Below, piece by piece: positions 3,699 to 44,264 of a stretch of 64,000 nt of DNA. Made by a program: the position numbers and the translations under genes. Within the stretch, counting starts at the first letter, position 1. The number at the start of each line of letters is the position of its first letter. The notes under the pieces were generated by a model. That model ran no database searches and was not told the origin of the DNA. It worked only from the letters and a program-made list of their open reading frames with translations. The stretch lies in NCBI GenBank assembly GCA_947459215.1, contig CANHCQ010000008.1, forward strand, positions 1 to 64,000, written 5' to 3'. The stretch is from Phycisphaerales bacterium. Lineage in GTDB: Bacteria > Planctomycetota > Phycisphaerae > Phycisphaerales > UBA1924.

Positions 3699-3798
3699 CC
3701 AGTGGGACCGGCCTCCGGCCGGTCTTCCTACGCACCGATCCCGCGGCCCATGGGCGACGAACTCGCGCCCCCCGACCGGCCGGAGGCCGGTCCCACTG
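3699..3798. repeat. Facing pair of CCAGTGGGACCGGC palindromes
   Basis: A copy at 3699-3724 and its reverse complement at 3774-3798 are separated by about 50 nt. Each is itself a hairpin (GACCGGCC-TCC-GGCCGGTC type). The same family appears at 7087-7204, 34173-34198 and 60882-60984. Confidence 0.88.
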
Positions 3799-13050: not shown

Positions 13051-13056
13051 AAGCAG

Positions 13057-13122
13057 CGCCCCCTCTCCCCGCTTCAGCGGGGAGAGGTGATCGAGGCCCA
13101 ACAGGCCGAGATCGGTGAGGGG
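13057..13122 (+). repeat. Partial copy of the composite hairpin element
   Basis: It contains the first hairpin CCTCTCCCCGC-ttca-GCGGGGAGAGG, a second hairpin around GATCGAGGCC/GGCCGAGATC, and GGTGAGGGG. This matches the first half of the four full elements at 18051, 23709, 29471 and 44126. The last hairpin is absent. Confidence 0.75.
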
Positions 13123-13190
13123 CCGCACGCTCTCACATCTCGAATCTCGCGTGGTGCGCATCCACGGCTCGCTCGTGTTCTCAGTTGTTG

Positions 13191-13299
13191 CCATCAGTCC
13201 GCGGCTGCTCGGAGCCGCGCGACTGATGCGTCTGGAACAACGGCCGTCATTCTCGCCGCCGCATCAGTCGCGCCGCAGAGCCGGCGGACTGATGGCACC
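13191..13299 (-). repeat. REP-doublet-like element, copy 1
   Basis: Two hairpins, CCATCAGTCCGCGGCT...GACTGATGCG (13191-13230) and GCATCAGTCGCGCCGC...GACTGATGGCACC (13261-13299), face each other across 30 nt. The whole unit recurs in the opposite orientation at 23545-23657, including the GGAACA/TGTTCC spacer word. Confidence 0.85.
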
Positions 13300-18050: not shown

Positions 18051-18220
18051 GCGCCTCCTCTCCCCGCCTGCGGGGAGAGGACGACTTGAGGCACCGCCTC
18101 AAGTCAGGTGAGGGGACTACGGGTACCTCAACACATCCGCGTCCGGATGCCCAACGCCCCTCCCCGGTCTCGCTGCGCTCGACCACCCCTCCCCGCTTCG
18201 CGGGGCGGGGAGGCGCGGGG
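18051..18220 (+). repeat. Composite multi-hairpin element with inverted ends, copy 1
   Basis: Order: GCGCCTCCTC end; hairpin CTCTCCCCGC-ct-GCGGGGAGAG; ACGACTTGAGGC-ac-GCCTCAAGT hairpin; GGTGAGGGGACT; GGTACCT; CCGGATGCCCAACG; then CCCCTCCCCGC-tt-GCGGGGCGGGGAGGCGC at the other end. The two ends are inverted (GCGCCTCC / GGAGGCGC). Copies 2-4 lie at 23709-23905, 29471-29611 and 44126-44264. It fills most of the rsmH-tetR gap. Confidence 0.88.
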
Positions 18221-23544: not shown

Positions 23545-23657
23545 CGGTGCCATCAGTCCGCCGACTTTGCGGCGCGACTGATGCGGAGTGGCAGTGACGC
23601 GCATGTTCCAGCCGCATCAGTCGCGCGGCTCAGAGCAGCCGCGGAGTGATGGCACCG
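23545..23657 (+). repeat. REP-doublet-like element, copy 2
   Basis: Hairpins TGCCATCAGTCCGCCGAC...GCGACTGATGCGG (23548-23586) and GCCGCATCAGTCGCGCGGCT...GTGATGGCAC (23612-23657) face each other. Reverse-complementing the element at 13191-13299 gives the same order, including the GTTCCA word in the spacer. Confidence 0.85.
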
Positions 23658-23708: not shown

Positions 23709-23905
23709 TCCGCGCCTCCTCGCCCAGCCCCCACGAGCATGGCAGCGGGGAGGGGTGGTCGAGGCTTGGGTGGGGGGTGGGGGGGCGAGACCGGGGAGGG
23801 GCCTTGCGTCACCGGAAGTCGTCGCGTGCAGGTACGCGCAGTCCCCTCACCTGCTTCGCCTCTGGCGAAGCGGTGCTCTCCCCGCTCGCGGGGAGAGGAG
23901 GCGCG
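23709..23905 (-). repeat. Composite multi-hairpin element with inverted ends, copy 2
   Basis: The leftward copy of the 18051-18220 element, with the longest spacing. Its ends are GCGCCTCCTC and GAGGAGGCGC. It keeps the CTCTCCCCGC/GCGGGGAG hairpin, a CTTCGCC/GGCGAAG hairpin in place of the ACTTGAGG one, AGTCCCCTCACC, GGTACGCG, and the GACCGGGGAGGGGC block. Confidence 0.85.
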
Positions 23906-29470: not shown

Positions 29471-29611
29471 GCGAGCCTCCTCGCCCGCGCGGCGGGGAGG
29501 GGTGATTCGGGTTCGGGTGTTCGTTGCGTTCAGGAACCCGCAATCCCCTCACCTGACTTGAGGCTTCGCCTCAAGTCGTCCTTTCCCCGCAGGCGGGGAG
29601 AGGAGGCGCGG
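29471..29611 (-). repeat. Composite multi-hairpin element with inverted ends, copy 3
   Basis: The leftward copy: GAGCCTCCTCGCCC end, GGCGGGGAGGGG, AATCCCCTCACCTG, the ACTTGAGGC-ttc-GCCTCAAGT hairpin, and CCCCGC-ag-GCGGGGAGAGGAGGCGC at the other end. It lies between the convergent epimerase and ohr genes, twenty bases from each. Confidence 0.87.
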
Positions 29612-44125: not shown

Positions 44126-44264
44126 GCGCCTCCTCTCCCCGCACGCGGCGAGAGGACGACTTGATGCGAAGCATCAAGTCAGATGAGGCGATTGCGTGTA
44201 CCTCGAGACCTTGGCATCCGGGCATCCAACGCCCCTCCCCGCTTCGCGGGGCGGGGAGGCGCGG
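44126..44264 (+). repeat. Composite multi-hairpin element with inverted ends, copy 4
   Basis: Order as in copy 1: GCGCCTCCTC, CTCTCCCCGC-ac-GCGGCGAGAG, ACGACTTGATGC-gaa-GCATCAAGT hairpin, AGATGAGGCGATT, GTACCTCGA, GGCATCCAACG, and CCCCTCCCCGC-tt-GCGGGGCGGGGAGGCGC. The second hairpin has compensating changes on both arms compared with copy 1 (TTGAGGC/GCCTCAA to TTGATGC/GCATCAA). Confidence 0.88.

Follow-up and report, generated by a model that had tools for sequence, protein, structure and literature searches.

Four intergenic loci of a planctomycete genome carry the same ordered series of hairpins between inverted ends. Are they a small mobile element, a functional RNA, or something else? The window analysed here is a stretch of 64,000 nt (G000:C8:1-64000) from the genome G000, an assembly of 3.66 Mb in 47 contigs. 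Our preferred answer, to which we give a probability of roughly 0.7, is that two different BoxC/PIT-type units, set tail to tail, form a dispersed and non-autonomous repeat, and that each unit would fold as class II triplex DNA.

Architecture of the composite element

All four copies named in the original prediction are found again with one common plan, far beyond chance. The covariance model R1 recognizes them with E values from 4.5e-49 to 7.9e-24; its alignment, A2, contained copy 1 and L036, the ortholog of copy 4 in the genome G001 of the same genus, with copies 2 and 3 lying outside it. Two copies point rightward and two leftward, the inverted ends GCGCCTC and GAGGCGC are present, and the change on both arms of one hairpin (TTGAGGC/GCCTCAA versus TTGATGC/GCATCAA) is real, all as had been described. 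The count of four holds for composites, with a further solo unit to be added. The features are as follows.

18051-18216, + strand: copy 1, full composite of 166 nt (left unit, 41-nt spacer, right unit).
18051-18115, + strand: left unit of copy 1, from the sequence and with its block order compared to excerpts of PMC4666352; terminus GCGCCTC, Y stem CCTCTCCCC at 18057-18065, R stem GGGGAGAGG at 18072-18080, loop-2 hairpin at 18083-18105, third strand GGTGAGGGG at 18107-18115.
18157-18216, - strand: right unit of copy 1, from the sequence and unit counts; terminus GCGCCT, Y stem CCCCGCCCC, R stem GGGGAGGGG, loop-2 hairpin GGTCGAGC..GCGAGACC, third strand GGGGAGGGG.
23712-23904, - strand: copy 2, composite of 193 nt with expanded right-unit hairpins.
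29473-29609, - strand: copy 3, composite of 137 nt without the right-unit loop-2 hairpin.
44126-44262, + strand: copy 4, composite of 137 nt without the right-unit loop-2 hairpin.
13056-13122, + strand: fifth locus, solo unit with the loop-2 hairpin TGATCGAGGCCCAACAGGCCGAGATC.

The less conserved centre of the earlier description exists, but copies 1 and 2 have a fourth hairpin there, GGTCTCGC..GCTCGACC or an expanded form of it, which is missing from copies 3 and 4. The extra length of copy 2 comes from insertions in its two right-hand hairpins. L036 is full length (168 nt), and the gap of copy 4 in the alignment with it sits between two CCCCTCCCC-like repeats. The G001 site orthologous to copy 1 is also filled, with a 300-nt left flank of 92% identity.

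Each composite is formed by two different units arranged tail to tail. Read 5' to 3' on its own strand, each unit has a C-rich stem (Y), a G-rich stem (R) and a second G-rich strand (R'), in blocks of 9 nt in left and right units. The left unit runs GCGCCTC, CCTCTCCCC, GGGGAGAGG, a variable hairpin and then GGTGAGGGGA. The right unit follows the same order on the other strand with GCGCCTC, CCCCGCCCC, GGGGAGGGG, the hairpin GGTCGAGC..GCGAGACC with variants, and GGGGAGGGG again. Loop 2 is thus itself a hairpin of about 19-27 nt, measuring 19-25 nt in 83 left units and at least 19 nt in the right units listed. It occurs in several versions in the left unit, for example GACTTGAGGC/GCCTCAAGTC, GACTCGACGC/GCGTCGAGTC and GCTTCGCC/GGCGAAGC (3 of the 83 left hairpins, of odd length, were excluded from the pair counts). 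The third strand of the left unit is a conserved block without a Watson-Crick partner. Of 81 left units, 73 have it in exact form, compared with 72 for the Y stem and 65 for the R stem. In 70 of 85 right units the Y stem carries a G that faces A.

The third strands of the two units face one another across a spacer, which is 41-42 nt long in 55 of 58 measured copies and diverse in sequence (pairwise alignment score 0.57 versus 0.33 after shuffling). Under strict patterns all 50 close pairs join a left to a right unit, tail to tail; no strict partner was matched for 33 left and 26 right units, many of which have a degenerate one. Of the 106 places used, 75 in G000 and 31 in G001, loose patterns give both units at 79, the left alone at 16 and the right alone at 11; this set excludes weaker matches, opposite-strand matches of the same place and one G001 stretch that was present twice (L147). 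By eye, solo right units begin sharply at CCCCTCCCCGG, and the halves are therefore units in themselves.

Kinship with BoxC and distribution

The closest known counterpart is BoxC/PIT/TM-ECO of E. coli, for which we draw on excerpts of PMC4666352. Its consensus is given there as CCCTCNCCCN3-6GGGNGAGGGN3GGGNGAGGG, in which a C-rich stem precedes two G-rich strands; our units have the same order, with near-identical blocks. Both families are intergenic without strand bias and occur in close inverted pairs of two types, and both have the G facing A in the Y stem, as in the E. coli 'mm' type CCCTCGCCCC. Each of the five close inverted pairs reported for E. coli joins one type A to one type B unit (PMC4666352); by our own reading of Table 1 of that paper, four stand tail to tail and one head to head. 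The main difference is loop 2, 3 nt in E. coli and a hairpin of about 19-27 nt here, so that on loop length our units fall outside the E. coli type. The elements described here also occur mostly as pairs with a spacer of 41-42 nt and inverted ends, live in a planctomycete and serve as an IS110 target. The triplex search excerpted from PMC4666352 limited loops to 1-6 nt; a search of this kind would therefore miss hairpin-looped units. Among the open PMC papers listed, none joins BoxC with a hairpin in loop 2. RIME1 of Sinorhizobium may be similar to these elements; the papers listed include none on it.

In both units a Y stem, a complementary R stem and a purine-motif third strand follow one another as in a potential intrastrand triplex of class II. 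Whenever the unit strand is single, in replication, repair or transcription, it would form a hairpin, and the second purine strand would bind to the purine arm of that hairpin. The third strand would be brought back by the loop-2 hairpin, with a sequence free to vary as long as pairing is kept. Such folding in the cell is our inference from the block order; for E. coli, the excerpts of PMC4666352 report that no stable triplex was seen in vivo. Changes in the triplex strands are too few to support or reject the triplex: across 76 left units (684 triplet cells), co-occurring changes of R stem and third strand were found once (expected 0.18), and the other two strand combinations gave none (expected 0.18 and 0.09). 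The G-rich blocks could instead be conserved for a quadruplex or as a protein site. Judged on sequence, the assignment as a hairpin-looped, typically paired BoxC relative is well supported.

The original prediction had proposed a search of the whole genome for more than four copies, and this search finds the family in dozens of copies in G000 and likewise in G001. BLAST with copy 1, in which the best 40 of 124 candidates were scored, gave at least 67 matches in G000; at least 40 of these, copy 1 among them, reach 120 nt. A covariance model built on 26 copies gave, at E<=1, at least 149 matches in G000 and 101 in G001 (best 150 candidates per genome scored); these numbers, like the 176 matches with R1, include solo halves, opposite-strand and weaker matches. 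One of the seven same-genus genomes searched by BLAST, G001, has full copies, and the six others (G002-G007) gave no match among the best 20 of 23-29 candidates scored in each. G008, of the same family, has at least 20 right-unit-type matches (best 20 of 59 candidates scored).

Exact Y-R-R' matches with a loop 2 of 2-30 nt occur in 10 of 101 genomes of the order, G000 included, and among the matches listed most of those outside G000 have short loops as in E. coli. G134 and G210 hold one close inverted pair each, with short loops that differ between the partners; in G303 a hairpin-loop unit and a short-loop unit stand tail to tail with gaps of 66-80 nt. Across the phylum, an R stem and third strand with 10-40 nt between them were matched in 16 of 294 genomes, several of which are by eye not hairpin units. 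The right-unit core is present in 19 named stretches, for example from Sphingomonas, Asticcacaulis, Beijerinckiaceae, a Hyphomicrobiales MAG and a Phycisphaerales MAG. Reading 21 loci with this core gave, at 12 of them, 15 close inverted pairs in which both units are clear, and the loops of the partners differ in 15 of 15. Eleven pairs are tail to tail (L224, twice, L225, L227, L233, L235 and G303). The other four, on Beijerinckiaceae and Hyphomicrobiales contigs (L222, L228, L231, L234), are head-to-head pairs of mixed-type, BoxC-type hairpin-loop units, so that the tail-to-tail arrangement is not universal. L232 and L248 have one more pair each with a doubtful partner, and L226, L229, L236, L237, L238 and L251 have no close pair. 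By the loci read, mixed unit type is the general rule seen across carriers and pair orientation is not.

It is tempting, though in our estimate rather unlikely, to see the E. coli BoxC, the planctomycete composites and the sphingomonad and Beijerinckiaceae pairs as one old cross-phylum family. Its true unit would be a hetero-pair of triplex-forming single-strand folds. The two-type rule would come from the way in which an enzyme or a replication process copies the pair, orientation and spacing would be set by the clade, and loop 2, as 3 nt or as a hairpin, would vary and set the type identity.

Pairing, movement and the competing explanations

The compensatory changes, whose count had been proposed as a check, support pairing in part. 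In alignment A2, 94.1% of cells are paired, compared with 47-52% when the partner is slid. Cells changed on both sides number 27 versus 8.5 in shuffles (0 of 500 as high), and 5 pairs versus 2.1 have a two-sided change (6 of 500), with shuffles that ignore relatedness; under the same shuffles the number of further pair types in A2 is not above chance (191 of 500). Four of the five pairs with two-sided change fall in left hairpin 2, and this hairpin has G.T wobbles in 15 variants and A.C in 3 (p=0.0075; 20 versus 3 copies), a sign that it is the own strand of the left unit on which pairing counts. Left hairpin 1 has no wobble bias (8 versus 8 cells), and in the right unit the own-strand wobble bias is not significant (17 versus 11 variants, p=0.34), which speaks against a general rule. 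The structural selection originally proposed is thus supported for left hairpin 2, by covariation and G.T bias.

The paired changes may also have a mutational origin, in template switching within quasi-palindromes or in gene conversion that copies an arm or a whole hairpin. We consider this somewhat unlikely, and it is compatible with our preferred answer. Orthologs can indeed differ by a whole hairpin, GACTTGAGGC at window position 18051 and CGCTTCGCC at L140. L023 and L066 have identical left units and unrelated-looking spacers (24 of 43 positions shared) between flanks of 87-90% identity, and the hairpin class is hardly linked to the spacer (0.580 versus 0.566). Between orthologs, divergence of the interior can greatly exceed that of the flanks, while the spacer of L107/L068 shares 38 of 41 positions. 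Template switching, however, predicts no G.T excess over A.C of the kind seen in left hairpin 2.

The proposal of a small mobile element is upheld by dispersal, that is, by copy number and by filled versus empty or half-filled sites, but the elements show no significant target duplication, and no linked transposase was found at the nine Y1 loci read. The comparison of syntenic gaps, likewise suggested at the outset, gives presence and absence between sister genomes. Many element sites are common to G000 and G001. The element L103 is absent from the corresponding G001 site, and L016 is a full pair where G001 has the right unit only; the same holds for L029/L150, with a further difference in the left flank. 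Two IS-interrupted G000 copies have flanks that match G001 sites with the right unit only (L154, L151). At the L107/L068 site, alignment found no unit in G002, G003 and G007, where the intergenic DNA has diverged. As for the window, G001 synteny breaks at copy 3, and for copy 2 no synteny was found in the stretches compared. Target-site duplications of 3-9 bp in 48 copies are not in significant excess over shuffled flanks; the closest case, 4 bp, was observed 7 times versus 3.7 expected and was reached by 22 of 300 shuffles.

Some elements lie at synteny breakpoints or beside inverted genes, with rearranged or inverted flanks at L011/L064, L108/L070 and L121/L058, a comparison confined to element sites; E. 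coli BoxC loci are reported in the excerpts of PMC4666352 as more rearranged than control intergenic sites. At L002 (G000:C12:34522 and 35105) two composites about 580 nt apart have near-identical interiors, as if the intervening block had been duplicated, and similar cases are L034 (G001) and L012 (G000:C29). In one gene, the composite at L016:1469 (+ strand, G000) and the solo right unit at L155:1478 (- strand, G001) would form an in-frame N-terminal extension of a prepilin-like protein (..FTLIELLIV).

An inverted pair of this kind recalls REPINs, which RAYTs move; here too a RAYT (a Y1 HUH transposase) would mobilize the pair, acting on single-stranded DNA. Like REPINs and BIMEs, the elements have short palindromic units inverted around a spacer of near-fixed length, in many copies, intergenic and patchily distributed. 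A folded single strand would agree with the wobble bias, G000 has 3 Y1_Tnp matches and G001 has 6, and an excerpt of PMC6006769 describes rare class 3 Y1 genes of Planctomycetes that are flanked by atypical high-copy structures. The palindromic dimers of GTAG- or CGTC-tagged REPs and of TIRYT TIR repeats are also alike, the TIR motif GGGGWSAS fitting GGGGAGAG (excerpt of PMC3733652). Compared with REPINs and BIMEs, our units have two hairpins and an extra purine strand each, and they end with GCGCCTC and GGTGAGGGG in place of a terminal GTAG tag. None of the nine Y1 loci is flanked by units (strict pattern, about 1.5 kb on each side), on which ground the RAYT link was dropped. One locus, L032, has a single composite some 1.3 kb off, and the palindromes beside another, L033, belong to a different family. 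G008, with its right-unit-type matches, gave no Y1_Tnp match. Mobilization by a RAYT therefore seems improbable to us.

Two further palindrome families were seen on the way. At L033 (G000:C6:159478-162654) a gene of the Ham1/RdgB type (790-2112, + strand) contains an in-frame Y1 transposase domain, and its 441-aa frame matches PF01725 (6.7e-51) and PF01797 (1.2e-5); the gene is flanked by CAGTGGGACCGGCC..GGCCGGTCCCACTG palindromes. Copies of the CAGTGGGACCGGC palindrome, as flanking this transposase, lie in the window at 3700, 3774, 5656, 7088, 7179, 34174 and 60961 and are perhaps the REP family of the L033 enzyme. The other family (ATCAGTCCGCGGCTGCTCGGAGCCGCGCGACTGATG) forms inverted clusters at 13189-13299 and 23546-23654 of the window and adjoins solo right units in L138 and L154.

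Were the element a MITE derived from an ordinary DDE-type insertion sequence, this would account for presence and absence between species and for the inverted ends, which a flanking C in 39 of 48 copies and a flanking G in 42 of 48 extend to C-GCGCCTC..GAGGCGC-G. Sharp-ended solo halves are unneeded by a MITE, and together with the lack of a significant excess of target duplications they make this origin very unlikely.

The functional RNA of the original prediction, for instance a terminator, riboregulator or mRNA stabilizer at gene ends, is dropped as highly improbable: covariation and G.T tolerance in left hairpin 2 would suit it, as would the 98 gene ends facing an element at a median distance of 24 nt (82 within 60 nt), but the structures of the two units lie on opposite strands, Rfam gave no match in the window at the gathering threshold, co-directional genes are evenly split, the lone conserved block is explained by the DNA triplex motif, and in E. 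coli PIT motifs acted neither as terminators nor as promoters, according to the excerpts of PMC4666352. The orientation count covers 73 places (18 ++, 18 --, 26 convergent and 11 divergent), with genes called by a simple codon model and orthologous G000/G001 sites counted twice; 14 places overlapping a called gene and places lacking a gene call on one side were excluded. Because the purine-type triplex is reported in the same excerpts not to form in RNA, and because gene orientation is even, we favour an element that would act as a DNA fold and not as RNA.

An IS110-type element targeting the left unit

The left unit is also the site of an insertion sequence. At six G000 contig ends the left unit, starting from GACGA, is fused to one sequence; at four others the part of the unit that runs up to GCGGGGAGAG is fused to a second sequence. 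Taken together, the two sets mark both ends of a single IS, inserted at one point of the left unit, with the target GTCGTC-CT-CTCCCC and a CT core. For one case (C9 start and C26 end), the allele without the insertion is L040 in G001. The IS ends encode an N-terminal VGIDVSK, which we take to be IS110-like, together with a C-terminus that matches it. No assembled copy of the IS is present in G000, where searches of the contigs with PF01548 and PF02371 were empty and Pfam gave no family for the 40-aa C-terminal fragment. Its relative L260 matches both families, the DEDD_Tnp_IS110/Transposase_20 pair (PF01548, 2e-26; PF02371, 4.5e-20), and shares with it the terminal AAGACAGTCG and 25 of 35 C-terminal residues.

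The non-coding end of the G000 IS contains TCGTCCT and, 24 nt on, GGGAGAG, the expected guides for both target halves in the bridge-RNA architecture excerpted from PMC11208160. Both guides in this order were met in 1 of 20000 shuffles, a test devised once the guides had been noticed. The second guide of L260 and L261 is GGGGGAG and the target CTCCCCC; predicted guide and target thus change together in these relatives, with a first guide that fits less well through a mismatch at the core. The predicted bridge RNA region folds no better than shuffles (z -0.30).

Targeting of REPs by IS110 elements has been described (excerpt of PMC1525189). The present case resembles the REP-inserting ISPpu9, ISPpu10, ISPa11, ISRm19 and IS621 in the site-exact insertion into a repeated palindrome with a CT core and in two guide-like stretches of the non-coding left end. 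It differs in that the target is a BoxC-type unit and not a known REP, the IS is unassembled and no donor loop was identified for it. From these junctions, an IS110-type element uses the left unit as an exact insertion site, with predicted bridge-RNA guides. At L140 and L142 (G001:C1 and C11), contig ends inside the right-unit hairpin share the sequence GTGTACAGACCGGAGACATGGG, which is perhaps a second IS with an exact site in the element.

BoxC has been known since the 1990s, with neither its mechanism of spread nor its function established (PMC4666352). For the BoxC-type pair we propose that it would spread as one unit by means of an enzyme and may serve as a site for recombination and IS landing rather than as RNA. 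The planctomycete family is an elaborated form of BoxC with near-constant pairs, sister genomes with and without it, and relatives with simple and mixed forms. The moving unit, the action of the fold as DNA or as RNA and the reason for two types would thereby become testable, and the IS110 case with its predicted bridge RNA would allow the targeting of a structured DNA site by bridge RNA to be examined in a natural setting.
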